A stretch of DNA of 64,000 bases, taken from assembly GCA_023078555.1 (NCBI GenBank), contig CM041200.1:8238807-8302806 (forward strand), in the 5' to 3' direction. The notes under the pieces were generated by a model, which was given only the letters and a program-made list of their open reading frames with translations, was not told the origin of the DNA and searched no databases. The position numbers and the translations under genes were made by a program. Numbering within the stretch: the first letter of the stretch is position 1; every line of letters starts with the position of its first letter. This stretch comes from Ulva prolifera (Eukaryota > Chlorophyta > Ulvophyceae > Ulvales > Ulvaceae). This document shows positions 19,679 through 57,300 of the stretch, piece by piece.

Positions 19679-22183
19679 ATGAATCCGACACGCGCGCCTT
19701 GGGCTGATGGAGCCAACGGTGACGTACCACCCTCAGATTCCCAGCCTGAAGATGTCGAACCAGCTGTACGGAAGAGCCATCACACTGGTACCCCTGTGCA
19801 AGCTCTGATCGTAGCCACTCCGGCACTCCCTGTCCCGAAGCGGTCTGGGTGGCCCTCCACATGGCAGCCTGCTGCCAAGATGATTCGGACACCTGAAGAT
19901 GTGAAACAGGCGCTCAAAGGCTCCACACTTCAAAGCTTTGTTTCATTTACTATGGCGTTGAATGAATCTGTGATTGGCGTGAAGAATAGCGATCCGTGCT
20001 CAGTGAGCCCGGCTGTGCAAGCACTTCTCGACTGTTTGACGAAACTGGATGAATTCGTCAAAGCAACTCCTGCTGTCACCCAAGAAGTACGCTATGGAAA
20101 TCCCGCGTTCCGGGACTGGTATGATAAGATGAAAGATGCAGCACCGGAGTTGGTGTACAACATTGTCGGTGATGATCTAGGAGAGGCCACCATCGAAATC
20201 CTGCCATACTTGTTAGACAGCTTCGGGAATCGTACCCGTATCGACTATGGGACGGGTCATGAGACCGCATTTGTTTGTTTTCTGTATTGTTTGTTCTGCT
20301 TGGGAGTGCTGAAGGAAGACGACTGCAAAGCCACCGTCATCAAGGTGTTCCATGCTTACCTTGCGTTGATGAGGGACATCCAAACCACCTACTGGTGCGC
20401 CTCATCATCTGATGAATTGCGAACGACCCACATTGTGCAGCTGTTGCAATCCGTGACGTGTCGCCTGCAATCGTAGACCCATGCATCAGCCTAGCTTGAT
20501 GACTTGCATGCAGAAGCAGCTTTGCCAGCCACGCTCGACCACTCCGATGCCGCACCCACGTTCACATGGCAAAGCACAACAGCGCTGGCGTGCAGAAACA
20601 AACAGCCACTGTCCCTCAGTGTCTGTCGGTCTATGCTCCAGATCCCCAACAGCGAAAAATTGCGTGAGTGCAACACTGCAGAAGCATACGGGGGAGACAC
20701 CGTGTTGATTTGTCTTTGTTCACCGCACCTTCCGCACACTTGCGGGAGTTGTGATGCCTGCTGTGTCACAAGAACAAAGTCAGAGAGCCAGGCACCCCCA
20801 CAGGCTCCGCGCTCACCACAGAAACAGCACCATTACGCACTCACGCCATCGCCATCACTTCACACCAGACACGACCCACACACCAACGGGGAGCAGTGTG
20901 TGGGTCGTGTCTCGGCGTGGGTGTACATCTCCTGCGGTGCATGCATTGGGGCGTTGGCATGCCTGTTCGTTGCCCTGGCGGTGCTACCGGCCACTCCGAC
21001 TGTGGCCTTGCAACACACTGCTCCCCGTCAACACTTCCCGCGCACTCCACCACCTCTACACACCCCCACCCATGCCGCCGGCTATACGTTTTGGATTATC
21101 AAATGCTTTGGGCAGCATCTGCAAATGTGATAATGACGTGATGCATGCAGGCTCGAGCCGGCGGGGTCGCACGGTGTGTGGGGCCTCGACGAGTACCACT
21201 TCTTCCCGTTCCTGTGGGGCGCGGCGCAGCTGCGCGGGCACGACCTCGTGCGCCCTGGCAGCGTCTCCAACGACGAGGTGCTCGAGGTGTACGCGCATGA
21301 CTACCTCTACCTCGACGCCGTGCAGTTTGTGCGCAAGGTGAAGAAGGGCCCGCTGCACGAGACGTCGCCGCTGCTGTACGACATCACCGCCGTGCCCAAC
21401 TGGGTCAAGGTGTGCTGCACGCCCACCCGAGTTTCCTCTTGGACTAGACAGGATTGCACGGCTTCCATGGATCCGTATCCAATCTCCATGACACAACAGG
21501 AAGTGTAGTGTCAACGATGTGCTTCCGGATGGGGTGTGAGACAGGCAACGATGATCTCACACCATGCATGTCATATTATTCTGCTTCTGCTCCACTTTGC
21601 AGTCATTAATGTGCCCAGCCAGTGGCCCCCGGCGGGACCGAGGCTCTGGAGCGGCCCCTAGGGCATGTCTCGAGTGCGGCAGTATACGTGGACATAGGAG
21701 GACATCCTGTTTGTAGCCGCGGTGCGTGGCTGTGCGTAATGGCCGGGGACTGGGACGGTATGCATGAGCGGGCGTCGTCTCTTACAGGGCAGAGTTCAAA
21801 GGTCGGGCTTTTGTGACATCGCCCGGGAGCTGTCAGGATGTGTTAGCTGGACACCAGAAACGATTGTTGCCCCGCCTCCTGTCTGAGGCTTTCGTTTGCT
21901 GATCGTGGCACACGGATGGTCAATTGACTGCGTATCATGCTGGTATGTGCGACTTCACACACTGCATCAGTGAATGGCTGTAAATTTAGACTGAGTCACA
22001 CCACGTTCTCCGTGCCATGCGAGCTGTAGTCTTGCACCTCATGAAGGCACGAAGCAATTCAGCACAAAGCGTGGCGTGCAGGTCAACCAGGGGCTCTTCA
22101 AGATGTACCAGGTCGAGGTCCTCTCGAAGCTGCCCATCATGCAGCACTCGCTCTGGGGGTCCCTCATGCCTTTCCCGGGCTGA
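19679..22183 (+). CDS. PTPA: Serine/threonine phosphatase 2A activator (PTPA)
   Basis: A peptidyl-prolyl isomerase-like chaperone that activates the PP2A catalytic subunit. Exons 19679-20394, 21151-21409 and 22082-22183 join in frame to give 358 residues, close to family size. Family landmarks are KMIRTPEDVKQAL (start of the conserved fold), YGNPAFRDWYDKM, the nucleotide/peptide-binding DYGTGHETAFVCFLYCL, a split codon joining TTYW to LEPAGSHGVWGLDEYHFFPF, the LRGHDLVRPGS segment, and the C-terminal GLFKMYQVEVLSKLPIMQH with WGSLMPFPG. The first about 65 residues are unconserved and disordered. Exon 1 has near-balanced GC while exon 2 is much richer and enters through a TGCATGCAG acceptor, so one gene carries both composition styles. 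Intron 1 contains perfect inverted repeats. Confidence 0.95.
20867..21028. repeat. Nested perfect inverted repeats in PTPA intron 1
   Basis: A 17-base arm AGACACGACCCACACAC (20867-20883) is perfectly complementary to 20896-20912, with a 12-base loop. A 16-base block ACGGGGAGCAGTGTGT (20886-20901) is perfectly complementary to 21013-21028. The two structures overlap, so they are mutually exclusive foldings. The second half also carries a dispersed repeat copy (20957-21017). Confidence 0.85.
20957..21017 (-). repeat. Dispersed repeat (GTTACAAGGACACAG family) copy
   Basis: Read on the minus strand, this segment closely matches 61355-61410: both carry an AAGG(C/A)CACAGTCGGAG block followed by GGCCGGT, then a CACCGCCAGGGCA block. 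More diverged relatives lie at 1641-1708 and 32375-32445. Confidence 0.65.
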
Positions 22184-24250
22184 TGTGGCTTGCTGTGGTG
22201 CCATGGCTGCCTTGGCGCCCTAGGGCTCGCACTGAGGCCCTTACAGTCGCCTTGGGCGTCCCAGAGGCCCTGTTGAATCACCTGCTGAACGCGAGGGGGC
22301 TACAAACAGCTCTGCACATCAGTTTTGCTCAAGCTGTGAGCCTTTTTTCCCTCTGTTCAATGCTGCAAGAGATCGTGCTGGGTAGTTTCTGCCCCCATGC
22401 TGCCTAGGAACTGCACTTTTGGTTACCGTGTAGCTTTGGGCTGTTGGTGGGCCTTGAATGGGTCCAGGGGTTACTGTGTGCGGCAAAGTGGGCGGTTCCC
22501 GTGCCTTCAGATAGGGCATCTTGTCCGTATCGGCTGCGACGATGCGGAAGATGTCAGTGTCTGCCCATCCTCATAACAGATGCGTGAGTCTCATCTGCCA
22601 ACCGACAGGCGCTGCATGTCTCAGTCACGATGTCCGAGTAGTGGTTGCTCACATGTGTATGCGTCGCCATCAGCTTCGCCAGGCTCCCAATTCTAGGCCG
22701 GTGCGATGATGAAGTGGATTTGTACTTTGCAAGTATTTCCTACATGCGATAAGCCAAGCGGTCGAGGCCCAGGTCGACTTGACCAGGACAGGAGGCCCAG
22801 GTCGACTTCTGTTGGCGCACAAGAACATTGACAATTCTGGCATCAATGCGGGTCTTTTTTTGGTCTATGCTTCGACTGGGAGGGGTTAATTGTTGATCTC
22901 ACGAAGCGATCCTTATGCCAGTGCACAAGAGGATGCCTGTAGCTGGTGTCTGCAGTTCGTGGTAACCGGCATCTGTGCTCACTGCATTAGCATGTGGTGA
23001 GGCTTATGTAAACACTCTATGACGTGTGGTTTCCATTGCCATGGCTAGGCTTGGTTGTGTAGTCCAGTGCCTGCTGGGAGCTCCTCTGCGATGGGCCTGT
23101 ATGCCGATGCTGATGTGGAGCTCTCTGCCACGGGCTGTGCTTGGGAGCCCCGTTGAAGGTTGTCATGTTTGATTTCTCAGGACACAGCAAGTCTGCGCTG
23201 TGCAGGTCATATGTGGCTTTGTGCAGTGGTGAGTGTGCTGCAGGGGTGCCATCACCACAGTGTTCTGTTGCCTGGCTCATACAACACCTCCTGCGGTACC
23301 GCTGCAGCGCTCACGTGCAAGATGTAGGTGTGGTGAGCGTTGTTGTAGCATAGTGGTGAGAATGCTTGCAGCAGAGTTGTGGGTGGCAAGCCAGCTAGAG
23401 AGACCGACTGCCCATTCTTAATCTGCGTGGGCCTGGCTGCTGAGCACAAGGTTACATCGCTTATCACAAAATTGACCGAAAGCCCTTAATGAACCTTGGT
23501 CACAGAGTGGCAATGTGTACATTTTGCGTTGATCGTGCTGTTGTGTACTCCGTGTACTATCTGAGGTAGAAAAGTGCACTGGTTGTTGCTGGTTACATGA
23601 CAATCACGGACAGACACGACATGTTTCGGCCTTGTCAAAGGGCCTCATCAGATGACCAGGTGAGTCAAGCAAACAACATCGATATCAGAAAGCATGTTTC
23701 TAACATGCAGCCCTCGAGAGCGAGGTTGTCCGCGTCCGGCAATCCACCGTGAGCACAGAGAAAACTAACACGGGGTAAGACAACGGGACAATGACATCAC
23801 GTCGCCCACGAGCGTGAGCAATTCATGCAACAGGCACGCACAGTGAACCTCCGCGGAGCTCCGCAGCACACCTACCACCAGTACGTGCACGTGCAGAACA
23901 GCTCCACATGACGCATGCATGCAGTTCATGGAGAAGGAGCCATGTTCCGCACGCCACAGACTGAGCCCGGTCTCCCATGACACAGCACGGCCTCGCGAGG
24001 CATCACTGCACTTCGATTCAGGCATAATCTCAGATTCCCGTTTTTCTCTTTGAAAATTGCGCATGTTCGGGAGTGTGCGTGTCAAAGTAAGTGATGAGGG
24101 TAACTGTGCCTGCCAAAGCATTGATTCCCTTTCGATCAGAATTGCATACATGATATGGTCACTTGGAATATCGTAGTGGCGCTATTAGCTCTGTGTACTT
24201 GCTTCAGCTCTCATTAGCAGAATTCTGGTGCGTCGATCTGTGATTCCAAG
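22184..24250. other. Intergenic region carrying a ribozyme motif
   Basis: About 2 kb between PTPA and IFT52. It contains the hammerhead motif described separately (23591-23657) and a stretch near 23334-23372 that resembles the 5' half of a tRNA. A minus-strand open frame (24151-23765) shows no family motif. I see no reverse transcriptase or endonuclease motif beside the ribozyme. Confidence 0.6.
23591..23657 (-). ncRNA. Hammerhead ribozyme motif (type I, Penelope/retrozyme style)
   Basis: On the minus strand all invariant parts appear in order. Stem I 5' strand GGTCAT is followed directly by CTGATGA. Stem II is GGCC, a 9-base loop, then GGCC. GAAA comes next, then a short stem III (ACA with TGT, plus a CGTG/CGTG helix), the cleavage triplet GTC, and ATG-TA-ACC pairing back to stem I with a two-base bulge. 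Position 1.1 (A) pairs with 2.1 (U) as required. Predicted cleavage lies between + positions 23599 and 23598. Type I hammerheads with short stem III are known from Penelope-like retroelements and from plant retrozymes. No other copy was seen in this window, so this may be a solo remnant. Confidence 0.8.
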
Positions 24251-27200
24251 ATGACGGTTCCGGCGTTCAAAGATTTGGACGAGGTACAGCGATTACCTCG
24301 TATATTTATGTCGCCTTGTGCACCGTGACCATGGGTTAGGTCTGTACATCTAAATCGGTGTGCGGTTGTTAAGCTCTATAAACATTTCTGCAGCGGGGTG
24401 ACAGTCTAAACGACGACGAAGCTTTCTCTATGGACTCAAATCCGGCTGGCGAATCAAAATCTTGTGATGATGCATCTGGTGAACGAGCAGACAGGCCAAG
24501 CGCCTGTGTGTTTTCCAGCGTTCTTGGCGAGACATTCACTCGCTCATCCGGGTACAAGGAGTTATTCCGCAGATTAGAGACCACCTTCCCAGACCGGAGA
24601 AGAGTGGAAGCAAAATCCCGGAATGGTCCCAGCTGCTATGCATCCTTGTCAAAGGCGCTGCGGGCAGAGTCTGGCATGGGTGTCCTTGTCCTTGGGAACC
24701 CCACCCGGCCATTGTCCACTGCGGAGCGGCAAAAGCTTGTGGACTTTATTGTAGATGGTGGACATCTTGTCGTCGCGGCTGGGGACGGTGGCATAAAAGG
24801 CAGTGATGTCAATGACATTCTTCGCCTCTTTGGAATATCAGTGAACACTGATTCAGTTCTGCGGGTCATGGTGCACAAATACTACCATCCAAAGGAAGTG
24901 CTCATACCCGATGGCATTGTCAATCGAGCCATCACCAAGGCTTTTTGGGAACATCAAGGCACGGTCCACACCTCATCGTCATTCGTTAGCCAGGTCGCAT
25001 CGCACCATCAGCGAAATGCGATGAGCTCCTGGCTGTGGAAACATCATTGGCTGCAGTTCTGCACAGTTCCATGGCGCTGCTCTACAGATGTCACCAAGGC
25101 AGTGTGCAGTGTTTGGACACCAGCCGTAAGGCGGCGTGGTGGTTCTTGATTTACAGGATCCTTTGGTCACGGATTCATGCAGGCCGTCGCTGCTTCATGA
25201 ACGATCTTTCGATGCATACTCTATAACAACATCTGGTTGTCGGCGCCGGCAGGTGCTTATGACTCCGGTGTAGCCATGTCAACCTCATCCCATGTGCATG
25301 TGCTGCCATGCAGGCAAAAACCCCTCATCAGCTCGCACCAGCAATGGCGCTGACAGCCGGGGATCTCGCTCCGAGGATATGCCGGAATTCGTGTATCCCT
25401 ATGGATGCACTCTCACACTGGCAGAGCCCGCAGTCGCGCTGCTATCGAGTGGGGTCGTGTCATGTCCTCCAAAGGCATGCATTGCAGCGCTGTCGCAGGA
25501 CATGACAGCCAGCGCCAAGCGGGCCAGGGGCATGCCTCTCGCAGGTGACAAGGTGTGCAAGGGGCGAGTCCTGGTCCTTGGCTCTGCAGCCATGCTTGCA
25601 GATCCCTGGCTTGACAAAGAGGGCAACGCTGGCCTGGTGAGGTGTGCTACCTTGTTGCTCCGTATACAAATGTCCTGAACTTGTGGTGGCTGGCCTAAGC
25701 TCCACCAATTAAAATATACCTGAACAGAAAGCAACATCTGCACATGTGGGCAGCTCAATCCTCACTTTGGGAGCATACAGCAATGCGTGACCCGAAACAG
25801 TGCTGGCTAGAGAAGCAGTTGCAACGAATGACGCCTGCGCTGAAGATGGTCCGTGATCTATCCTGCCCACATTGACGGATCCATACCATGCCATCAGCCA
25901 GGCCCTAATTCGGTTGGAATACAGATCTAAACGGTCTAAGACCCTGCCCCGCAGCACCCGCACAGTCCACGAACCTTCAACCACGGGTTATGTCGCGTCT
26001 CGCTGTATAGGTGCCTCTTTGAGCTCGTGTCACCCGAGCGCCCGCTTCGGCTCAACGCGGCTGACGCCCGCACCCCGAACGTCCGCACGAAACAAATCAT
26101 CCCGGACATCGCGGCCATCTCGTCACAGCCGCGGGGCTGCCTCGAGGACGCGATGCAGCTCCCGCCGAACCCTGCGGAGCTCTTCGAAAGGTCCCTCTTC
26201 TCCTTCAACGTTAGCCTCGTGCCGGAGGCGTCTGCGCTGTACCGCAAGCTCGGCCTGCCCAAGAAGCCACTGACGCTCATCGAGCCGCAGTTCGAGCAGC
26301 CGCTGCCGCCGCTCAAGCCCAGCGTGTTCCCGCCCCGGATCTCCGAGCCACCGCCGCCGAAGCTCGAGCGGTTTGACCTCGACGACGCGTTTGCGAACGA
26401 GTACTTCAAGGTGACGCAGCTGACGCTCACGGCGCAGCGGCTGGGCCGCAAGGCGCGCGCGGCCACGGGGCCGGGAAGCAAGGGCGTTGGGTCGAAGGCT
26501 GAGGAGGAGTACACGGGCGTTGTGGAGGACTACGTGTCCAAGGCGGCGCAGGCTGTTGGCATCCCGGGAGCGGCTAAGATGTCCCCGCAGCAGGCGCTGA
26601 TGCAGGTGCGGCTGAGTGCAGCCCTGACCACGTGCGCACAGAGCGCTCGCAGTACATGGCGGCACCTGTGCTTCTGCCATGAATGCTGTGCACCGTTGAA
26701 GGCTGGTGGGGGCAGCAGTGCCGACAAGCTGGGCCAGGATCTTGCAGCAATGTGTCCAACTGCAATTGTCTCATCTGCTATGTGTGCGCCCCGCCATTTC
26801 GCTACAGCCCATGTGGTTCAGTGACGTGCATCTGGCATCGAGAGGGCGTCTGAGAGGCACATGATTATGTCATGGCCGCACAGGCGTTGGGTATGGCTCT
26901 GACCATGGGGGATGCACACATCTTGTGCCTGAGGCAACAATTTGCACGAGTTGTGTGTATAAATTTGGCCCGCAAACACCATGAGAGATCCTGGCCTGAT
27001 CAAGTGATCGAGGAATTACTACTTGTGTGTTGCCTGCACTTGACGTGCGGAGTCCTGGGCGTTCCAGACTGTGATCTGACATGGCCTGGGTTTACTAGAC
27101 TGGCGTTCACAGCTACACATATGGATAGGCTGCATATGAGACGGTCTCTCGCTGTGTGCAGGTATTTGATGCCATTGCAAAGTGGAAGCTTCAGTCTGAC

Positions 27201-29523: not shown

Positions 29524-32500
29524 ATGCAAACTAACATTGCTCATGGCCGAGTTAGCGTTCCGACAGCATCCTCACGCTCGCGCATGAGAGCTGCAGCGCA
29601 AGCGCCAAAGCGAGGTAAGTGACTCCAACATCTACAATGAGCATGTAAAACTGATGCTGTTGTCTGATCAGTACGCTTGATCCGAGAGTTCGGTATCAAG
29701 TGCCACATGTTTGTGTGGCAACATTCCATGCGAATTCTGGCTCGAGGTCAACAGGCCACACGACTGCCGCGCTCACGTACCGACGACGACACCTGCATGT
29801 CGCAGTTGTGCAGGCCTCCCGTGTTCGCTTGTCCCTTGTTGCTCAAACTTTCGGCACGTCGCTAGCTAGCGCACAAACACTCACCGCGTCGTGCTCTCTG
29901 GCGCCAGAAACACCGTCCATGCACTCATCTACACCTCTCACGTCAGTGTGGAAAATATGTCTATGTACATGCTCGCGCCTCAAGTTCGCCGTTCCTGCGG
30001 TGGCGTACCGGCTAGGCCACATCCCTGTGCCATACCAAAACACACGTGTTTCGAATTGCCGGAGGCACAGCGCTGCCTGTGACGCCTCATCCTCGCCCAA
30101 GTGCTGTGGTCTGTGCGCCCTGACGGCCATACAGCACTGTCGTAATTTCAGCCAGGTACCCCACCACCTCAACTGCCAGCTTTGCATGCGTCCCTGGGGC
30201 CTTCACTGTCATTGCCCACACAACAGCCAGAGATATCACGCAGATGCAGCGATCTCTCTGCCCCAGCACACAGTACCCGTCGAAGCAACACAACAGTCGC
30301 CTTGCCAAGGTGCACCTTTGTGTGCTACTTCACGTCTATCTCCACACAAGCAGGCACCTGCTTCCGCACCCGCCCCCCCACCCTCCATTGACCCCCTCGC
30401 ATGCACATGCAGCCTCCGCCCACGCCCCCCCGCGCCGCCGCCGCACCGCATGCGCCGCGCAGAGCCCCACCTCCACCGTCGACAACGCCGACCAGCCCCC
30501 CCTCTCCACGAAAGCCGCCCTCTCCGCCTCCAAAGACGTCGTAGACGCAGGTAAGGAAGCGTTCGAGTCGTCCAAGGATGACGTGCTGGAGACCGCGGCC
30601 GCGGCGGGGGACGCGCTCTCCTCCGCCGCCTCCTCCGCGGCCACCACCGCCGCCCAGCGCCTCCGCAAGCTCTCGGCCTCCGCGTCAGAGGACCGGCCGT
30701 ACGCTGCGCCCAACGCGCTCTCCCTCGCGCGCCGCCGTGCGCTGCAGAAGTGGCTGCCGTACCGCTGGGCCGAGACGGCGCGCCGCGTGCTCGAGAACAT
30801 CCCGGCGCAGCAGTTCTCGTACCTGCAGTCGACGGGCGCGATCCTCTTTACGGCGGTGACGGCATTCGGGGTCGCGTACGCGTCATGGCCTGCCGCGCAC
30901 AGCGCCGTGCTGTGGGCGTTTGCCGCCGGCGGGCCGGAGGCACGCAACATGCAGGTGCCACCCCGCTGCTCTTTACCCCCCTCGCCATGCAGGCTCTGCA
31001 GACCGGAACACCCCTCGCATGAGCCTTTTGCACGCGATTCTGTCGTGCTGACATGTACGTACTATCTGCGGTGGAAAGGTCACTGCCGGATGCTGTTTGT
31101 GTGCCGATCACGGACTGACATGCATGCGCATGTGGGGATCTGGTCAGGTGACTCTGCCCGTACCTGACTACGAATTGAGAGTCCTGTTGTACAAGACAGA
31201 GCATGGCTGCCTCCGCGACGCCGGCTGCGAGCTGCTAGCCGTTCCAGCAGCGGGCTTACACGAGTCAGCACGCGCAGCATGAAACTTGCGAGAGTACACA
31301 GAGCGGCAGCATGAACCTTGCGCGAGCACACAGAGCGGCAGCATGCCGCCGGAGAGCGCCAGCGGTTGACGGCGGGTCGCGTGGGGTGCAGGAGATGACG
31401 TTTGAGACGCAGTACCTCGCCGCCGTGTCGCTCGTGACCGCAATCCTGCTCGGAAACTCGTTCGGGCTGTGCTTCGGGCGGCAGGCGCAGCTGGTGCAGG
31501 AGATGGGCGAGGAGGCGCTCGCACTCGAGCTGCTGCTGCAGGAGCTCTTCATCGAGATCCCGGAGCCGCACCTGCGGTGGCGCGTCATCAAGCACATCCG
31601 GTGCGTGCGCCGCACCCCACAACACCCTGCATGTGGGACTCTTGTGCCTTGCCTTCTTTTAGACTCGTTTGCCCTTCTGTACGTACTTGTGTATGTGTGC
31701 GGGCAACAGTCAATGCGTGCGATGATGGTCTGCTGCTCGTTGCCAGCGCATTTGCAAGCAAGCCATCCAAGCGATGCCAGATTCACGTAGTCGTATCTGC
31801 ACCGAGCATAGATTGCCTGGTTTCCGCGCTGTGTGTGCTGTGCGCGCTGCGGCTTGGTATATTGGCAGGCGGTCGCGTGTATTCGCTGCGTGTCGGCATG
31901 CTAGTCTGTGATCGAGGCGCATGCGCCCATGCATGGCTGCACGGAGCAGCAGGTCTGCATAGGGTTCACTGCATGCGCAGGGCGGCCGGTGCCCGGCGTT
32001 TCCCCGCATGCGCGGCAAACCCAACCCGCTGCGCGCAGCCCGTGGCCTGACATGGAGGGCCCAGCACCCGCCCTAAAAACGAATCGGTCGCAGGCTCAAC
32101 AAGGCAGCACGCAGCACAGCAGGTCGGACATCACAGCATGCACTTCACCAGACCCCCACGACGCAGCACGGAGCAGCAGGCGCATGCGCCTTGTTGTCCG
32201 GATGATCTGCTGGAGTGAGATTTGGTGGTTGTTCGCGTGGGTGCCCGTCGTTGCTTTGAGTTAGTTTTCTTGTTGTTGCTCTGCCATACAATGGCCCGAC
32301 ATGTTGTAAATTGACACGGAGCAGCAGGCGGTGCATGCATGCATGCGCAGTTCATACAACAAAACAAGCAGGTGTGTGTATGTCGTTACAGAGGACAGAG
32401 GCCGGGCAGCGAGCCGTTGCCAGGGATTCACGCGCAAATCCACTCATGCAGTCATGCATGATTACATGCATGCATGAGTGGTGCATGAACTACATGCATG

Positions 32501-33883
32501 CACGGTGTGATCACGATGGTGGCGGTGCAGGTCGTACGTGGACAACGAGATGCAGGTGCGCGACGTCGACTCCCCGTTCTCGGCGAAGGGCAGCATCGTG
32601 GGGCTGTTTGACGCGCTGCTCACGCTCAAGTCCCAGGAGAACCGCCAGATCGGGAAGCTCGTGGACTGTGTCGAGATGCTCGCCCGGGTGCGCTCCCCGC
32701 CTCTCGTCTTGCATGCATGCACACTTGTCACCACACAGAACAGAGCCCGCTAAGCTTAGAGCCCCGCATTGCATAAACTGTTCATGCGTGTTGCATGCGA
32801 TCTCCGTTGCGGCGATGTATTGCGGTCCCTTATGCGGGCCCGGCCCGGCCACAGAGAAGCGACACGGCAGCCCACATGGGCCGTGCAGTAACGCAAAGTA
32901 AATCTGGATCTGCGTAGCCATATCCTGGGGACGACATTGACAATCCTGAATGAACGTGCCCACATGCGGAATGAACGTGCCCACATGGTCCAATGGGTTG
33001 AGGACGGATTAAAAGCTACCCCCTCCGTTTCAGCAGGTCGTGGGTTCGATTCTGCGTGCGCTTTGGGAATCGAAACGGCCGTACGTGACCACCTCGCTTA
33101 GCACAGGAGGAGGCCCTGTGAGTTGCGTACGGTCGTCTGAGGGGGGTTTCCAGGTGGTTTACCCCTTCGGCATATGTGGTCCCGTTAATTCGGAGTTGTC
33201 AATGTCCAATAGGATACGGCTCAGTAAATTCAGATTTTCTTTTACTTTACATGCCGTGGTGCGACATTGCGCTCGGTGTTGAGACGCACGCTTCTGCAGC
33301 TGCGCGCTTGCGCACGCTTCAGTACGACGGGACAGCCACGCGGGAGTCGCAGCTCGTCGGAGGGTCGCAGCTCCGCGGTCTGCTGTGAACCCCGACGAGC
33401 CGCAGTGTCACCCTGTGATCGCTTTCACATCCCCATCAACACCGCGTGTGTTCATATTACATGCACAAAACTCCCATTGATCACTCCCTAGACTGCCAAT
33501 GTTCGAGGCCGCTTGCTTCCACCCCGCAGTGGAGGTGCTCGGCGAACAATCGCAGCCATGCATGTGCATGCGATACTCAACGAGCCACGTCCAAAAAGAC
33601 GGAAAAAAAAAGCGCCCCGGGCGGCTGGGTGACGGCTTTGTACACAGCGCCGCCGCGTCCCTCATGCCGTGCGCACATGCATGCAGGCCAACTCCCGGCG
33701 CGGCGGCATCGCGGCGTCGCAGCTGCCGTCCCTGCACTGGGTCATGCTGAGTGCGCTGATCAGCCTCGTGCTCGTCGCGTTTGTGCTCTTTGACTCGGAC
33801 TTCAACACCGCCGTGGAGGAGAACCGCCGCACCTTTTCCGTCATCGCGGCCACCTTTGCCACCATACTCGCCGTGCGCTCCGC

Positions 33884-35784: not shown

Positions 35785-38585
35785 ACTGGATGGCTCAGCA
35801 TGCACAGCGTGACGTGGGGCTACAGAAGGGCAGGGCGCTGTGAACCATGGGGGGGGGGGGAGTGCCGGGGTGGAGCATGCACTGCAGCAGGCCACAAGAC
35901 TGCAGCAGGAAGGCAGGGACGGCACGGTGATGGCACCATGCAGCATCATGCATGCAGGCGAAGGGTTGTGGGTCATTGTGCCAGGGGCGGAATCTGTGCA
36001 CGGGCGAGCGGGAGGGGGTGGTTGACAGCCAGCGCCGATAGCAAACACGTGCCTGCGTGTTGATCGTCAGCACAGCCGGTAGCTGGCAGGAACGACAGCC
36101 GATGTTTTCTCAGTGTACGTGTACGTGTGTGCTTGTTTGTTTTGGTTTTTTCTGCGGGTTTTCCGGCGTCCACGCCCGCCCGCTGCTGGGGAAGCTGCGG
36201 TCAGACTCAGCCTCAGGGTACGGGCAGACTCAGCCGCGCAGCTGGCCCAAGGGGCTGCATGGCATTTACGTAGGGGACACATACACTGTGTCGGTACTTT
36301 TGACGTTTGGGCACTACATAGCGGTCCGCTAATGGACGCAACTACATCTAGGATTGTGTAAAGTATGAAGTTTCCGACGGGGCCGCAGCGCCCTGCATTA
36401 GCCAGCATCTGTTCTGCACGTGAAGTAAGCAGTCAAGTAAAACCCCGGAGACAGAGGTAGCTGCCTGCTGTGCTGCAATCTTGTGGGCAGCTGCAGTTGT
36501 AAGCTGCGCCGGAAGCGGTATGGCTGCGTCATCTTGCTGGTGCCATTGTTGGCCAGTAGCCATGAGTCGTGCTTGAGGCGTTGCTCGAGACGTTGATGTT
36601 CAAGAGATGAACGCGCCACGCGCCTCTGCAGTCGTATATCGCAAGCATTTGTGAGTGGCACACCGCCAGGCACATGTGCAACACGGGGTTCTGTGGTGTT
36701 TGTGTAAAAGTAAAGTAAATCTGAATTCACTGAGCCGTATCCTATTGGGCATTGACAACTCCGAGTTGACGGGACCACATTTGTGCTGGCAACCGGCTCC
36801 GCTTCATTCAACGCAGCCCTTTGCAGTCATGCCCTGGTCCTGGGGATGAGATGCTGAGCGCAGGCCTACATTTACTGAGTCGCATCCTCTGGGGTCATGT
36901 GGTGCTACAGACTTGCCCATGGGATGCCGCACCGGGAGGTCTCCCGCTGGTGCTCCTCCACTTTCGAGACAGCCTCTAACATTGCCTGCAGCCACTGTGT
37001 GTGCTTGGGCGGTGGCACGGCATTCGTGGCACACAGGGGCCCGGGAAGTTGCGTCCTTGACCTGCTTGCTGCTTTCGCGGTGCTGTCCGCCTCGCCACCG
37101 TCACTCGTGGCAACACAGAGGCCGGGAGAGTCTGCGGTGTTGTCACAGGTTGAGGGTGAACACGCAAGCGTTGCCACGTGTTCGGCCTGTGCCATGGATT
37201 TCGTAGACGTGTGGCATTCCACGCCCGTGCTATATCGCAGCTGTGCAGAGGTTTGTGGTAGCACACCCACCAAGGCTGACGGAAGCGTTTCTATCTTCAG
37301 CTGCACTTGCTTGATTGTACAGGAGAGCTGCAAGTTCACTGCAGGGTGCACTGATGGCCAGGCATGTATGGGTCGGAGGTCAAGAAAGCTGCAAGCTCGC
37401 TCAAAACATGTCCACTGACTGGCATACTAAACATGTCAGGTGCTTCGTTGAAAGCGTCAAACCGAACGAGTGGCAAAGAGACAACATCAGGCGAGAGACA
37501 GGTCAGAGAAATACAGGATTCTGCGGTGAAAATATTGTGCAGGTGTCCTTTTCAGGCTGGTTATTCGTGAAACATGGCGAACTGAGATGTGGTAGCTGGA
37601 AGACCTGGAATGCCATGACCGTTGCACGCTCAAGAACACATCACGCAAGCGGGGGCACGATGTTCTATGTCAGACACGATGGGGACTTTTGTCCATCCTC
37701 ATTGGCTCCTCGTTTGTCTGCAGAACTTGTGCGGGTGCTAGGGAGACCAGGTGGACGGTGTCGCAAGCATGCTGCGCCATGCCATGCGTGGCGGTTTAAC
37801 TCAGCCCGAGTATACCTGACATTCTGTCTGAGGATGTCTTAAGAAGCACGAACTCATCCTTTGTTCACGAGGTTTGTGGCGGAGCCGGTTTTCAGTCCCT
37901 TCAGCCAGTGTGTATTGCGTGTGCTGTTGTGAATCGACACACAAGCACTCGATGTGTTCGACCTGGATTTACCGTTGAAAGGGACGCAGAGGCAGCCTAT
38001 CGGCCACAGCCATACAGCGAGGCCCTGCTGTATCCGATGTTATGACTACGCGACTGCTGGCCACCGACTGGGTAGCTACATGTGGCGTAGACTGCGCGCC
38101 CCACAGGCGGTGACGTTCGATGGCATGCCACGAGCAGCCTTCAGGAGGCGACGAATGGCATCCATGCAACCTGCAGCACTGGCCGATGGATCGCAAATGC
38201 AGCCACGGCAAGCTTCGACTGCATTGCGCGCCCAGCAAGTTGTTCATGAGGCACATCTGATGGCGAATTGGAGCATGCATGTGACCTTTTTCAACAAAAT
38301 CGCCCCCCTTTGATACTGCAAGGCTGCAACGTGTGTGCCGCCGGGCCCGTGTGTCGTAACTGCAGCGGTCAATCGGCAGCACTCACTCGTGGCAGATTAT
38401 CCGCGAAGGATCATGGGACAACCTGTCAAGACTTTCAGATCAAGTCTACTAGCCCCTCGAGTCGCACTCTCGCCGCCATCACTGGGTACGCTGTTGCGTG
38501 GCTCGCTCGAGCAGTGAAATGCCGTAACAAGGTGGCCGCGGACCTCACGCCCAACTTCTAATCCACCACCGTGAAAAATGATATC
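35785..38585. other. Spacer between tandem paralogues
   Basis: About 2.8 kb with no recognised gene. It holds copies of the dispersed 75-base repeat at 36700-36785 (strong) and 36862-36902 (partial), plus a GTGTACGTGTACGT microsatellite near 36110. Several open frames overlap on both strands without motif support. Confidence 0.55.
36700..36785 (+). repeat. Dispersed ~75-base repeat, best copy
   Basis: Near-identical to the minus strand of 33183-33262: AAAGTAAATCTGAATTCACT, then GAGCCGTATCCTATTGG, then CATTGACAACTCCGAGTTGAC. The similarity ends abruptly on both sides, as expected of a small mobile repeat. Confidence 0.75.
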
Positions 38586-41500
38586 ATGCGCTTTAAGTTC
38601 CTTATGGCTTGTCTTGTGCTGGCTCAAGTGTGTCCTGCACTTCGGCGTCATGTCCGTTTAACCGGAGCTGTCGCAACGTATATCGTCGTGGCAGCACGAA
38701 CAGCTGCTGTACAGGTGGGAATCATGCACTACAATTTAGCAGCCAACAACATCGATGTGTTCGCGTCTGCGCGCAGCAAGATGATGCAGCCAACACCGCG
38801 CCCGACCGAAGGTCACAGCTCGGTCAATCGCCGGCTCCAAAGCCCAGGTACATCCCCGAGTGGAACTCAATTGACATTGCGGAAGGCGAGGCACTGGAGA
38901 CAGCATTAGCAGACGCGCAGGTCCCCGTGCAGCCCTCTCCGCCAGCCGCTGACGCAGCGGACGAGTTCCCCGAGGAACTGTCAGGTGCAGCTGACCAGAC
39001 CGCGTCCCAGCTCCGCTCTGCCGATGCCCCAGACTACTCCGACGCTTTCTCCTGGCTCCCACCCTCATCTACCCCAGCCACACCATACGGCGGCTCACAG
39101 CAACCGCCACCCCCAGCCCCCAGCGCAGTCCAAGCACAAGCCACACCATCCTTCCCCCAGGATCAGCCGCAGCAGCAAGCTCAGCCCGACCCCCCAGTCC
39201 CATCGTCATCTCCACCCGCCCCCCCTCATGCGTCCGCAACACCCTCGACACCGCCCCCCACGTCACCCCCTGCAGCAACCGCCTCCGAGCCCATCTTCCC
39301 CGCCCTCGGCCTCAACCCCCGCCCCCCCTCCTCCTCCTCCGGCCAGTCAAACTTCTTCCCCTCCCGCCGCAGCTCCTCCGCTGGCCTCCCGTCCTCCGCC
39401 TCCCTCGACTTCTCAACCCCCGTCCAGCCCCCCCTCGACACCCCGCGCGCCCCCCCCACCCGCCAGGACTCCTCCACCTCCAGCGCCGCCGCAACCACCG
39501 GCAGCGTTTCCTCTGCGGCGATGCGCTTCCGCTCGCTCGCGGCCAACGCACGGGACGACCGGCCGGCGTACCGGCCGCGCAGCGCGCTGTCCCTCGCGCG
39601 CCGCCGCATGATCTCCAAGTACCTCCCGTTCTCGTGGCAGCGGCAGCTGCGGCGGCGCGCGGAGGACATCCCGGAACAGCAGTTCAACTACCTTCTTTCC
39701 ACGATCGTCATCGTCGGCACGGCGGCCGCGAGCGGCGCGTCCGCGTACACCCTGTGGCCGTACGCGCGCCACGTCATCAACTTCATCTTCTCCGCCGACG
39801 CCGTCGAGGCGCGCGTGCTGCAGGTGTGTGCGTCCCCCGCATGCATGTCGTCCATGCATGCAGCAGTCCGGCCAGCTAGCGGCTGTTGCGAATTTGTTGC
39901 CGCTGAGCAACCCCGGCGACGTTGGCGCTGATTCGCGTCATGCGCCATGGTTGATTAGCATGTGCCCACGGCTGAAGCCGTAACGGCGGCAGTTTTGGCA
40001 ACGGGCGACCTCGCCGTGGGGATGTGCGGTCGGGACAGATGCGAGCCGAAAGCGTGAGGTTGGTCTAGGCAGAGCTGCGGGGCAGAGCAGCACATGGGGG
40101 AAGGGCCCGGGGGTGCTGCGAGGCAACCGCGCAGTTGTGGTATTGTGATCACACAACAATCACGATAATAATCATCATACACCATACAGAAGGATTGGGT
40201 GCAGGAGCTGACGTTTGAGACGCAGTACCTCGCCGCCATCTCGCTCGTCACGGCCATCCTCTTCGGTAACACCTTTGCCTTCTCCTTCGACCGCCAGCGC
40301 CAGATCATCCAGGAGATCGCGGAGGAGATCTTTGCGCTGGAGCTGCTGCTGCAGGAGCTCTTCATCGAGATCCCGGAGCCCCACCTGCGCTGGCGCGTCA
40401 TCAAGCACATCAAGTGCGCTGCCACCCGCTCCTGTCGATGCTCGTCCGCGGAGGCCCCTGCCGCCCAGCAGCCCTTCACTCCGTGCCGTCATGACTCTCG
40501 GCCTCACCCTTTGCGCCTCTTGCCTCAGCAGCGCGACCCCTGAGGACACCTTGCCGCTTGCCCTGCGGCTCCTCACACACGTCGCTCATGACAGCCGCTG
40601 TTGCGACTGCTGCCGTTACCTCGAAGGCCTCATCAGCTGCAGCACCTTTACACATCACACCCGCCACTGCGTGATGCGGGCGTCTTTGTGGGGGGACGAA
40701 GCGAGCCTCCTGAGAGCTGTGCTGGCCATGCTCCCTCCCGCTCCTGTTTACCTCCGTTGCTGTGTCCGTTTGCCGTTGGCATGTTTGTGCGGCGGTCGCC
40801 GGCGTGATGCACGTGTATCACATGGGGGATTGAACCCACATGATTGCCCCATTCCGGAGGAGAATGAGGCCATCAGGGTGGTGGTGCAGGCGGTACGTGG
40901 ACGACGAGATTCAGGCACGCGACATCGACTCGCCGTTCCGCGTCGGGGGGGCCATCATGGGCCTGTTTGATGCGCTGCTGACGCTGAAGGAGGAGGGCAA
41001 GACCATCTCGAAGCTGCTGCTCTCCGTTGAGATGCTGGCTCAGGTGCCTCTCCCGCCCTGCTCCAGTAACACCGATACAATTCACAGTGTAGATGATGAA
41101 AATGTGTAAAATACACGTGTGAGAATGCTGCCATCTATGCTCGTCTCAAAGCACCCGTCAGATGTGTCTACATGGGTCGAAAGGCAGGGTGCGCTGAGCA
41201 GGCCAATTCACGGCGCGGCGCGCTCGCGGCGGCGCTGCTGCCGCCGCTGCACTGGGTCATGCTGGGGTCGCTGTGCGTGCTGCTGCTGAGCGCGTTTGTG
41301 CTGTTTGACTCGGATTTCAGCAACCCCGTCGCGGAGAACCGGGCCATCTTCGCCGTCCTCTCGGCGATGCTCGTCACCATCGTACAGGCGTGCCCCCCCC
41401 TGTGCCGTGCCTGCGCATGTGTGTGGGTATGTAACATCACGCAGCTGTATCCCAATGCTCATTCGGATATATAATAGATTCCTGTGCCGTCTATGTCTGA

Positions 41501-51365: not shown

Positions 51366-54300
51366 TCAGATGGGGTGTAAACGGTCGCGCATACAGCTGT
51401 GCCGACCCTTAACAGTACCGGCGAAAGCGCAGCGTGGACCCTTTGAGATTGCAAGAGCACGTGTGAAAGCGATCACAGATGAAGCATTTCCTCTCACATT
51501 CTGAAGCAAGACAGGAAATGGATCCCAGATGGAGAGCGCACCGTGTTCACCAGTGCAGTGCATCCGCCTTGCAAACCTGCTCGCCGTCTGCGCAACCCGG
51601 GACCGCCCGACCGGCGTCGACTGGATCGATCCCGAGTCCACAGACGAAGGTGTCTCCGGTCCACGGTCCGACCGTGCACCTGTGTATGCATGGCTCGCAT
51701 GCATACCGCCCGACTCGGGCATCGCGACTCCGCACCCGGGCATCGCGTGCCGGAACTTCTCAACCGTCGCGCGCACGAGCCCAGCACGCACAGCAGGGGC
51801 CGGAGCCGGGTCTATGCAGCGCACCGGGGCCGGACTGCAGGGCGCGTGCGGGCTGCGCGGCACATGCCGCAGCGGTGTGCTGGAGCCGCTGGTGCCACCC
51901 TGCGACAGCCGCGCACGCGCAGGCGTGGTGGGCCGGCTATGGCAGCTGCCCCGCGCGCCGCAGCCGGATGCGCCGCCAGGGGGAGCTGCCGCGCGGCGCG
52001 CAGCGGCACGTGGCGGTGTGGCTGGGGTGCGCTGCGTGCTGCGCGCAGGCGAAGGCGCGGGTGTGATCTCTTGCTGCTGCTGCTGCGGGCGTGCCGCAGA
52101 CCGAGCCGGCCGGGGTGGGGTGTTCAGGCGGATATTCTCGTGGAACACGCCGAGGTCACTGACGCGCGCATGCTCCGCATGCGCTGCGCGCAGCGCCTGC
52201 ACCGAACGCCGGCCTGGGAACGAGCCAGACGAGTCGTGGCGGGACGCGTCGGCCGAAAAGCGGCCATGCGCCGCTTGCCCGATGGACAGCCGGTGCGCCG
52301 CCATTCGCTGTGCCTCCCGCGCACTCTGCAGTGTTGACCCGCCAATCGGGGTTGAGACATCGGGCGTCGTCGGTCGTTCCGCGCGCGTGCCAGATGCATG
52401 GGGCTGTGCGTTGCTGGTGCGAACCGGCGTCCGTGCAGCCGCCGGCGATGCGGGTGCGCGGCCGGTACGCATCGGCGTCCGTGCAGCCGCTGGCGACGGG
52501 GGTCCCCCGCTGGTGCGAATCGGCGTTCGCGCAGCCGCCGGCGACGGGGGTCCGCCGAGGCTGACCCTGCCCCCTCCGAAAGCTGCCCTGCTGCTGCGCC
52601 CTCCGGTCGGCGCATTGTTGGACGTAACAGGGCCCAGCGCCTCCAGCTCCAGAGCCTCCAGATGCAGCGACAGCTCGTGCGGAGACCTGGCGTTCCCACT
52701 GTCTCGGGCGTGCGTCACGGCGGGATGCACGGCGGCAGCGGGCCGGTCCACCGCATGTGGCTGAGGGGGTTCCACCGCCTCGCGGCGACCCGGCGGCGTC
52801 CTCGGTGTAGGGTCGCTGGGGCGGGCGATGGCCGGGACCCGCGCGGACGATGCCGCGGGGTGATGGCTGGGCCGCCCGGTGTAGTGCTGTGCGGGGCGGC
52901 CGGTGGTGTGGTTTTGCGGCGACGCTGGACGGCCCGGTTGACGGCCGCGATGGGAGGGCGTGGGGCCGAAACGCTCGCCTGTACTCACATCAACCCCTGC
53001 TGTCATAAAAAAAAAATTAAAGAATAAAAAATACGGACTGCACTATTGCATGGTAATGCATGAAGACAGACCCCCGGCCGTGCAGCATCAAGGAACACGT
53101 GCACACTGTTTGCACGTACTGCGTACACTGCAACACACACAGGCACTTGTGTATACATACAACTGATCCAACTGAAGGTTGTGAACAGCTGGGATTGTGA
53201 GACTGGAGGCGGGCCGCACGACCGCCAGTTTCGCCTGGCCTGGGAGCACAAGCTGCGTGCATTGCTGCATCGGAACACCCGCAGTTGACACAACAGATGC
53301 GTCGCATCGAGAGAGGATGTTTGGCTGTACGAGCCCCACGACATGAGTGTTTGTCAACAAAGGCGTACATACAAAGCACAAAATTGCGGCCGGCACAGGG
53401 GGAGGCGCACCGGCGTAGATGATCTCCTTTGCCCGCCTCAGCACCGACGACGGGAGGCCGCGCGGGCTGTCGATAGAGCTCCGGCGACCCGGCGGCCCGG
53501 CCGTCATCCTCTGCTGTGCATCAGGGTGCTGCCCGGCACCCTCGCGCGCAGCGGGGACGGCAGCGCCATTCTCTGGCAACGCCTCGCGCTGGGTATGTGG
53601 AGTGGCGCCGGCGGCGGGCCCGGTGCGCGGCCGCCCCCGTGCCTCCCGCACTGCATGTGACGCATGTGGCTGCTGTGGGGGCGCGTGGCTGGGAGCGGCC
53701 TGGGGGGGTGCCTGATGGGCCGGGCCCACCTGCGACTCGCGTGGAGGGCTTGCGTCTGGTCGGCGGGTAGCGTAGCGACGCGCCACGTCGTCCAGAAGAT
53801 TGTAGTCTGCGGACAAGATCGCTGCAGAGGGGCTCGGGCGGGGCCCAGGCGACAGAGGCGAGTACGATGCAGCGGCGGCCGCAGGGCCGGTTCGCGGCCG
53901 TGCATGCACGGTGGCATCGCCATGTGGACGCGATGTCTCGGCATGCATGTCCAGCACGTGCGGCAGCTGCGTGACCACCGGCAGAGACAACGCGGCTGCG
54001 CTCGGCTGATACATATCCTCTGCACATCCGGGGAGCGCAGGGCGTGCGGAGGGCCTGTCAGCAGCATAGCGGCGCGCCACGTCCTCCGGGAGATAATTAT
54101 CCACAGAAAATTCGATGCTGGACCGGCCGTGCTTGCGCTCACGCCTGACATACACACCCTCGCTGCCAAAGCCGCCGTTCGGCTGCAGCTGCGCGTGCGT
54201 GGGGACGAGATCCCGCGACGCCATGGACCCTGACGACTCTTGAGCGGCGGCGGCGAGCCGCCGCGACTCCGTGTCGCTGGCTGTGTCGAGGAAGCACGAG

Positions 54301-57300
54301 GCCTTGGGCACGAAGCGAGTGTTGGGTGGGTTGCTGAGCTGCGGAACGTCCGCGTCATCCCCGGGGCCAGCTGCGTTCGGCTTCTCGTCCGGGCTGCATA
54401 AGAGCGCCGGCGTCGGAATCCCGAGGTATGAGCTCTCGGCGGTTGTGAGCGGGGGCGGGGCAGAGTCATACCGCACGCATGGTGCGGGGGAGTGCGCAGC
54501 GGCGGGCTGCGACGGGTTCCGCGATGGCGAGCGGTGGGAGCACTGGGAGAGGCGATCCCCCCGGCCAGGGGTAGAGGAGGGGCTGCCGATTGTGGTCGCG
54601 CAGATCGAGTGCGCCGGCGGGCCGGGGGGGATGGTCATTGCATCGGTGATGTTGGAGAGGGGCGGGGAGGCCTCATGCGTGTTGAGCGGCGAGACGACGG
54701 GGGAGGGGTCGCCGAAGAGCCACATCGGGATGCGGAGCTCAACCGTGCTGCCGGTCATGTGTGAGTCAGGGGAGGAGGATATGGAGTTGCACCGCGGCAG
54801 CGGCGGTGGAGACGCCGGCGGCGAGCCGTCGGCAGGAGCGTCCGCCGCTTGCTTCTCAAGAGGCTTGTGCACGCTGCCATCACGAGCCCCCTCAGGGGCC
54901 ACGGCGGTGGAGGACGGCATCAGTGGCTGAGGTGCTGCGTGGACGGAGTGTGGGGGGGTGGTGGTGGGGAGGCTCGGCGTCGGGACGGGGGCTGGCGCCA
55001 GCGAGTACATCGTGGCTACAGGGGTCCAGTATGTCGCGGGGGCGCTGGGGGATTGCGGCCCGGCCGGGCCGGGGGGCGGCGGAGACGGCGGTGAGCCGGC
55101 GGTGGGAGAGGCGCGGCGGTCAGGCGTGATGCGGGGGGGTGTAGGGGGGACGTCGGCTACCGATTGCATGGTTGAGGAGCCACCACCGGCAGATTCGGAC
55201 GGCTCCGCCGACTTGTCCTGCGGGCCGGACTCCGCGAGGGAGATGGCAGGGGAGACCGCTTCTGCATCGGCGGGTGGGTCTTCGGGCGGGGGTGGCGACA
55301 GGTGGCGCGACCGCGAGGTGCGGCTGTCGTGACGGGAGCTACCATGGCTCAGTTCTGCGAGGGGGCTCGGGGGGGTAGGGGGGTCGGCAGCCGGGGTCGC
55401 GGGGAACGCGGCCGCGAGGTTGCGACGGGCGGAGTGCTGCAGCGGCGGCCGGGTCGGGGAGAGGCCGGAGGGCGTGGCTGAGGTGGAGGAGGGAGGGGAC
55501 TCGAGCGCGGGGAGGCGCGGCCGCGGCGTGTGGAACGTCGACGCGCTGCGCAGGCTCGACTGCACAGGTGAGAGGCGCGCAAAGGAGATCGAGCCTCCGC
55601 AGCTGTCGGACCCTGCGTCCTCGTCATCCACGCCCGACGGCCCGTCTTCCCGCGGAGGCGCTTCGTCCTCCGCAGCGGTGGCGACGGTGGCGGCGGACGG
55701 GTCCGCGCGCGAGAGGCGGGCCACTGCCGCCTCGCTGCAAGCTGACGTGGTGCTGATATTGCCCTCTGCGTCTCCGTCGTACCCGGTTCGGTAGGATCCG
55801 TGGAGGGTGTCGGGCCGACCGGAACGGCCCGACGCCGGCGCGGCTGCACCACTGCTGGCGGGAGCACGCGTGGCGGCAGTCGCCGGCGCATGCATGACAG
55901 CGCCGGTGTCCACGGCTGCGCCCGCGGCACAGAGCTCTTGGGAACCGGGCTCCGTTTCGGCAGACATATACTCTGCAGCAGATGTACCCTGAACTGCATC
56001 CGTGTCACCAGGGTGAGCCTCGATGGCAACTTCACCGCCGCTCTCTCGTGAACCTAGGCGCTCAGAACCCACGTGGGTTGTCTCATCTTCCGCTTCAAGG
56101 TCCTCAGATCGGAACACGACCTCCAGCTCTCGGCCGGACCTGCCCGTGGCAGCGGTGGCCGACCCCACCGCTCGCGCGCTCAGCAGAGGCTCCAGCTCAA
56201 GCGGAGCCGTCTCACGGACACCTCCCGGTAGGGCCGCATCGCCGCACAGGGTCGAATCACCGCCACAGATGGAGGCAGAGTCCGAGTCGCTGAGAAACTC
56301 GACTGTCACTCCGCCCTCGGCCGCCCCGTCGCCGTGGGCGCGCGCCGCAGCGATGAACGAGTCGAAAGAGATGAAGTCTCGGAGCGAGTTCTCGCTGCGA
56401 GCCTTACGGATCTGCTCCTCGGTCTGCTGGAAGGTGCGTATCAGGGTTTCCAGGGTATTTCGGCCCTCGGAGGAGTGCGGCGTGGGCACGGAGGCGTGAG
56501 TGTCTGACGCAGGAGGCTCGGGGGCGCCGGGGTGGGGGTACACCGGCGGGGGTGGGGCTGCGGGTGGGGGGGTGTGAGGGGGGGTGTAGGGGCGCGTGTG
56601 GGTGCTGCCGGTCGAATCGAGGCCTGTGTCTGACTCTGCAGGCTTTGTTGTGTCAGTGACATGGGATGAGCAGCGCGTGTGACAGAGCTTCTAGCCGTGA
56701 TCGTAACAAACATCGATCGGACACGCACGGGCACGGCCCATGCATGGAGGACCCCACCCGCGCAATGTTTGTCCAGCAGTCGCGCAAGCACCGGAGGCGC
56801 TGAGTAGAGCCGATGATGATACACATCATACACAATTGTTATACTCATGCATTCCCCAAGGCCGCAAGTGCCTTCAGAACGCGCTTCCGGTATGCTATTC
56901 AGTGAGGCCACAGTAAAACTTAGCAAACAGGAAAACATCCCCTGAAGGCAGCAGCCATGGAGGACCGGGGCGCCGGGGAGGGGAGGTCGTACCGACATCG
57001 TCGTAGTCACTGTCATACGCATCGCTGCCATGCATGACGTGCCCGGCCTTGACCTCGTTGCCCGGCTCCTCAGCGGCAACTGCATCGCCGAGCGCGCTGC
57101 CGTGCTCTGCGACTAGGCTCCGCATGGTGAGGGGGGGCAGCTGGTCCCACAGCGGCGCGTCGGGGTGTTCGCCACTCTCGCGCGCCGACTCCACTTCATG
57201 GCTGTGCGGCGGTGTATAGGCCTCGGGCGTCCAGGGGACGGACGCGATTGATGTGGCCGCCGTGACGCCGCCAGACGCCGTGGACACCCCGTCGTCCGAG

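Follow-up and report, generated by a model that had tools for sequence, protein, structure and literature searches.

A hammerhead-like motif beside an algal dispersed repeat, probably a look-alike or non-working remnant rather than a working ribozyme

The reverse transcriptase of Penelope-like elements often carries a GIY-YIG domain. Hammerhead ribozymes of Penelope-like elements include forms without helix III (PMC7761336), and in one axolotl class helix III consists of a single pair with a palindromic tetraloop (PMC7229834). Plant LTR retrozymes mostly contain type III motifs, in monomers or repeats several hundred bases apart, and form elements with target-site duplications (PMC4918200, PMC7761336). 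Isolated algal hammerheads are mentioned in PMC4918200, and a review warns that hammerhead searches are prone to many false positives (PMC6155905).

Here, we analyzed a 64-kb stretch of algal DNA (hereafter the window), for which an initial annotation had proposed an intact hammerhead ribozyme between the PTPA and IFT52 genes. This position was borne out by Pfam, as the exons of PTPA match PF03095, while IFT52 matches PF23355 and PF23352. Both genes are encoded on the plus strand; the motif follows PTPA, precedes IFT52 and is antisense to the two of them. An inverted repeat of about 75 bases (20950-21022 / 61354-61428; 83% identical) was also observed, the first copy of which lies between two PTPA exons.

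Read directly on the minus strand, positions 23659-23589 have the order CTGGTCAT-CTGATGA-GGCC-CTTTGACAA-GGCC-GAA-ACA...TGT-C-ATG-TA-ACCAG. The hammerhead-like core CTGATGA (23651-23645), also retrieved by descriptor search, is followed by stem II (23628-23644), in which GGCC (23644-23641) pairs with GGCC (23631-23628) around the 9-nt loop CTTTGACAA, and then by GAA (23627-23625), the second half of the core, and an A. The invariant type I core, i.e. CTGANGA...GAA and an H17 preceded by U, is present and stem II is adjacent to it. Stem III was initially drawn as ACA (23624-23622) pairing with TGT (23602-23600), 3 bp around 19 nt; it can also be drawn as 3 bp, a bulged U and 6 pairs including G-U. 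C17 would accordingly be position 23599, with cleavage at 23599/23598. Stem I is composed of the 5' strand CTGGT-CAT (23652-23659) and the 3' strand ATG-TA-ACCAG (23589-23598), which form CAT/ATG (3 bp) and then an outer 5-bp helix (CTGGT 23659-23655 / ACCAG 23593-23589). All elements had been placed within 67 bases; the letters agree, but the last helix extends 2 bases past each end, to 23659-23589. No other site in the whole 64-kb window fits a relaxed descriptor of type I hammerheads (stem II at least 3, stem III at least 2 and stem I at least 2 bp).

How often such an arrangement arises at random was estimated from 6,000,000 flank pairs per pairing rule, drawn from the window, which contains 12 CTGATGA and 48 CTGANGA. 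CTGATGA followed 6-30 bases on by GAAA is expected 0.82 times per window and was seen twice. All further descriptors were drawn up after the site had been seen, and their figures, which hold for a single window and are to be multiplied by the number of windows scanned, depend strongly on stringency: the loosest descriptor (G-U allowed, all stems at least 3 bp) gives 1.0e-3 per window for CTGATGA and 4.2e-3 for CTGANGA, G-U pairing with stem II of at least 4 and an outer helix of at least 5 bp gives 4.8e-5 to 1.9e-4, and Watson-Crick pairing with at least 15 bp in total gives 1e-5 to 4e-5. Watson-Crick pairing together with an outer helix of at least 5 bp, for which the window site qualifies, occurred in none of the 6,000,000 random pairs, i.e. 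below about 1e-5 per window. The earlier statement that the arrangement is very unlikely at random is supported for the exact Watson-Crick form; the loosest descriptor gives up to 4e-3 per window.

The stems closing the motif are weak. Four GTC triplets, ending at 23618, 23613, 23609 and 23599, lie inside 22 bases, and each offers some closure with 3-5 contiguous stem III pairs. With C17 at 23618 (GAA-ACAUGU-C), stem III of a monomer would have just one pair, with the palindromic CAUG as its loop, and stem I consists of U-G, A-U and C-G followed by a U-U mismatch. C17 at 23613 permits the stem III ACAU(GUC)GUGU, which is accompanied by no contiguous stem I. Contiguous pairs in stem III and stem I amount to 3 and 3 at 23618 (G-U included), 3 and 3 at 23599, and 5 and 0 at 23613. 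The description of the ribozyme as "intact" is not supported, the best contiguous closing stems being 3 and 3. Nor is 23598/23599 supported as the sole cleavage site, which is ambiguous: other GTC triplets can be closed as well and the two covariance models described below disagree. The short stem III of Penelope type that had been assumed is here 3 bp around 19 nt, not a short capped helix.

Closure was also compared with viral sites found by a core pattern, of which 128 of 133 had full flanks, the remainder being too close to an end. Closure by stems III and I of at least 4 bp each was found in 84 of these 128 sites and in 0.5% of random flanks (G-U allowed), but not at the window site. Given the core, stems III and I of at least 3 bp occur in 3.3% of random flanks when G-U is allowed and in 0.7% under Watson-Crick pairing, and 0.04% of random flanks also provide an outer Watson-Crick helix. 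As this outer helix is present in just 2 of the 128 viral sites, it is no marker of real hammerheads. At -6.5 kcal/mol, the stem I duplex of the 23599 reading is less stable than random 20x20 duplexes typically are (median -8.2); those of the other two readings have -9.2 and -12.3, and none reaches the 5% level of random duplexes (-15.8). For the 89-nt stretch, the minimum-energy fold has -19.2 kcal/mol and surpasses the hammerhead fold (-8.3 to -12 kcal/mol) in stability by 7-11 kcal/mol, and the folding z-score of the 67 nt is -0.86, although minimum-energy folding is a poor hammerhead test, as such energies ignore tertiary contacts.

A search with the Rfam hammerhead models, which had been suggested as a check, returned no gathering-threshold match in the whole window. 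The best permissive score was 18.5 bits to RF00008 (type III; cut-off 48.5; E 0.32 in a 501-base search), while the output left out a weaker match from that clan, so that this search provides no type I score. The Rfam score is not significant, though Rfam proved insensitive: among 20 control loci with the core pattern (of 120 fetched), 11 had a closable site, and just one of these 11 (L059) passed at that site. Locus L051 gave a type II match away from the pattern site, and two well-closed viral type I sites of L015 scored 27.2 and 30.2 bits to RF00163, under the cut-off of 34.

Because Rfam is a weak test, we built two models of our own, R1 from 19 viral type I sites and R2 from 137 R1 matches in viral loci. 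The window site scored 29.3 bits with R1 (rough E 1.9e-8; next best in the window 11.0) and 32.9 bits with R2 (next best 12.1); R1 placed the cleavage site at 23618, with ACAUGU as stem III, and R2 at 23599. When 85 viral loci (of 120) were searched with R1, 137 matches were obtained, 94 with at least 29.3 bits and 43 with less. The scores of the window site overstate the case and are partly circular, since the pattern used to retrieve the viral loci had itself been modelled on this site. The motif thus stands out as hammerhead-like with models shaped on it, but not by Rfam gathering thresholds. Of note, six viral loci contain several type I-like R1 matches (L015, 4; L027, 6; L036, 4; L055, 7; L079, 7; L104, 4), spaced a few hundred bases or more; L015 was the one among them included in the Rfam check, in which 1 of 20 loci passed at the pattern site.

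BLASTN of 23300-24400 against the window detected a second copy of part of the region, showing that this part is an old dispersed repeat. Copy A (23533-23616, minus strand) covers just the 3' part of the motif. Copy B (31043-31120, minus strand) lies within a plus-strand gene, in what is probably an intron spanning about 30954-31388, and contains no hammerhead core. The copies have the same orientation and are 72.6% identical over 84 columns (E 2.7e-6). In a self-search of the whole window the pair has an E of 1.6e-4, the weakest of the 26 self-matches listed at E 1e-3, and its score of 45.5 bits was equalled by none of 300 dinucleotide shuffles (best 36.5).

Aligned with the motif as a two-sequence alignment, copy B keeps 2 of the 10 catalytic letters (2/7 in CTGATGA, 0/3 in GAA), so that the core is not conserved in this one homologous copy, with the reservation that homology may stop short of the core. 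Matches to A amount to 20/39 letters in the 5' half, 20/28 in the 3' half and 39/60 further downstream. Stem II of copy B retains 3 of 4 standard pairs, one via a change on both sides. When copy B is read as for 23599, 1 of 3 stem III pairs and 0/3 and 2/5 of the stem I pairs are kept; when read as for 23613, all 4 stem III pairs are kept, one having changed from T-G to T-A. In anchored extension with windows of 20-30 bases, the similarity between 23613 and the ACATG block was equalled by 47-397 of 3000 random sequences; past this block, in the upstream direction, similarity is no better than random, as 820-1489 of 3000 random extensions equalled it across six settings. The repeat thus takes in the 3' part of the motif, while its core is not detectably included. 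Some doubt is left by the string GASTCACCTG, which recurs ahead of each copy although its offset differs, and the core may simply have been lost from copy B. Rfam gave no match at copy B in permissive mode, and model R1 scored 5.1 bits there at most. No third copy in the window exceeded the inclusion threshold with an A+B profile (best E 0.083); the exact degenerate A/B pattern was absent from viral contigs (0) and from prokaryotic contigs (0), which is expected for an algal repeat and says little.

The gene carrying copy B in its probable intron belongs to a duplicated multi-exon gene, in which five blocks (68-82% identical, same order) recur at 30.6-34.6 kb and 39.5-41.9 kb; no Pfam match was obtained for the ten ORFs scanned of 29.6-35.0 kb. 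The corresponding stretch of the duplicate at 39.5-41.9 kb is without the repeat block. Duplication of the repeat along with this neighbouring gene was considered and rejected, as an 18-base match (E 0.16) is all that was detected in the paralogue stretch 39700-40250. Likewise, coding exons were dismissed by eye owing to stops and a one-base indel between the copies, and a C/D or H/ACA snoRNA owing to boxes seen by eye in one copy and not kept in the other.

For a mobile-element context, Pfam was applied to 40 ORFs of more than 100 aa, 34 of them at 16.6-35.0 kb; the scan took 28 of the 40 listed ORFs of at least 100 aa in 17-31 kb. No reverse transcriptase, GIY-YIG or other mobile-element domain was matched in these 40 ORFs. 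This agrees with the initial observation that no reverse transcriptase is visible beside the motif and speaks against the Penelope-like element proposed with it. No long direct repeat is present in 22000-26000, where the longest family has 24 nt at 75% identity. Neither the terminal direct repeats in which Penelope-like elements have their hammerheads, nor the set of at least two hammerheads, spaced by a few hundred bp, with a target-site duplication that characterizes retrozymes, were found with this single motif; inspection by eye revealed no target-site duplication around copies A and B. ARAGORN found no tRNA gene. Judged by eye, the string TAGCATAGTGG at 23346-23356 (plus strand) is consistent with a tRNA box A; it precedes copy A by about 180 bases. 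Elsewhere in the window, another dispersed repeat occurs at 33171-33248 and 36707-36783 (91% identical), and fragments of it are present at 418-544 and 825-856. Beside this repeat, at 33042-33052, the string GGGTTCGATTC resembles a tRNA box B by eye, and the repeat is possibly a tRNA-derived SINE. Two very long open frames without Pfam match (1200 and 1466 aa) were further observed on the minus strand at 53088-61295, the 1466-aa frame overlapping tandem-like repeats at 57.7-58.2 and 59.4-60.1 kb.

With moderate confidence, we regard the motif as a hammerhead look-alike, or a non-working remnant, located at the margin of an old dispersed repeat that has degenerated. Either is likelier than a working ribozyme because the stems are weak, the site is ambiguous and the repeat copy is without the catalytic letters. 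With several GTC triplets nearby, some closing helix is easily found after the fact. Self-cleavage would then not be under selection at the motif, and minus-strand RNA, if made, would cleave poorly or not at all. It is possible, though less probable, that the motif is a true type I hammerhead, in minimal or partly decayed form, inherited from a hammerhead-bearing retroelement of the Penelope-like or the animal-type non-LTR retrozyme kind. On its own, such a ribozyme would have weak activity, and dimerization via the palindromic ACAUGU (C17 at 23618) would improve cleavage. The perfect core, stem II and GAAAC argue for such a descent, as do R1 and R2 scores far above the rest of the window, an exact Watson-Crick arrangement seen in no random flank pair, the largely retained stem II of copy B, and the minimal axolotl and Penelope-like forms and isolated algal hammerheads introduced above. 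However, stem I at 23618 is poor, catalytic letters are absent from copy B, no reverse transcriptase was matched in the 40 ORFs scanned, and the window holds no second hammerhead and, in 22000-26000, no long direct repeat.

Two further readings concern the repeat itself. We consider it unlikely that a short non-autonomous algal retroelement has its 5' end at the hammerhead and that its copies derive from self-cleaved RNA. This idea is suggested by the A/B similarity, which begins within several bases of 23618/23617 or 23613/23612 and runs downstream; copies of such templates would start at the 5'-OH end and would be without the ribozyme core. The boundary near ACATG fits self-cleaved templates, but two copies cannot establish that. 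It is quite improbable that the minus-strand motif is irrelevant and that the repeat has another role, e.g. as a SINE fragment or as an element expressed from the plus strand. The splice-donor-like strings CAG-GTGAGT and CAG-GTGACT, found on the plus strand just past the shared block in both copies, and the box-A-like string upstream of copy A would be in line with such a role, but no Rfam family was detected at either copy, the one-base indel breaks a shared frame by eye, and there are two copies only, with no tRNA-like head seen at copy B.

As things stand, the lesson is that core letters plus one stem are insufficient for calling a hammerhead. If the look-alike or remnant reading were wrong and the ribozyme did work, it would be one more case beside the isolated algal hammerheads mentioned in PMC4918200, and it could show self-cleavage setting the ends of small retroelements. 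Compared with the type I hammerhead (RF00163), the window site shares CTGATGA, the GGCC/GGCC stem II, GAAA, GTC and an open helix I, but its helices I and III are short or ambiguous, no gathering match was obtained and the only other copy is without the catalytic letters. It resembles plant LTR retrozymes (PMC4918200, PMC7761336) in its non-coding, dispersed repeat context, but no partner motif or target-site duplication was seen. Unlike the minimal hammerheads described for Penelope-like elements and for retrozymes of amphibians (PMC7761336, PMC7229834), it is without a tandem partner, without a Penelope-like gene in the scanned ORFs and poor in helix I, but, when read with C17 at 23618, it shares with them a one-pair helix III and a palindromic CAUG loop.
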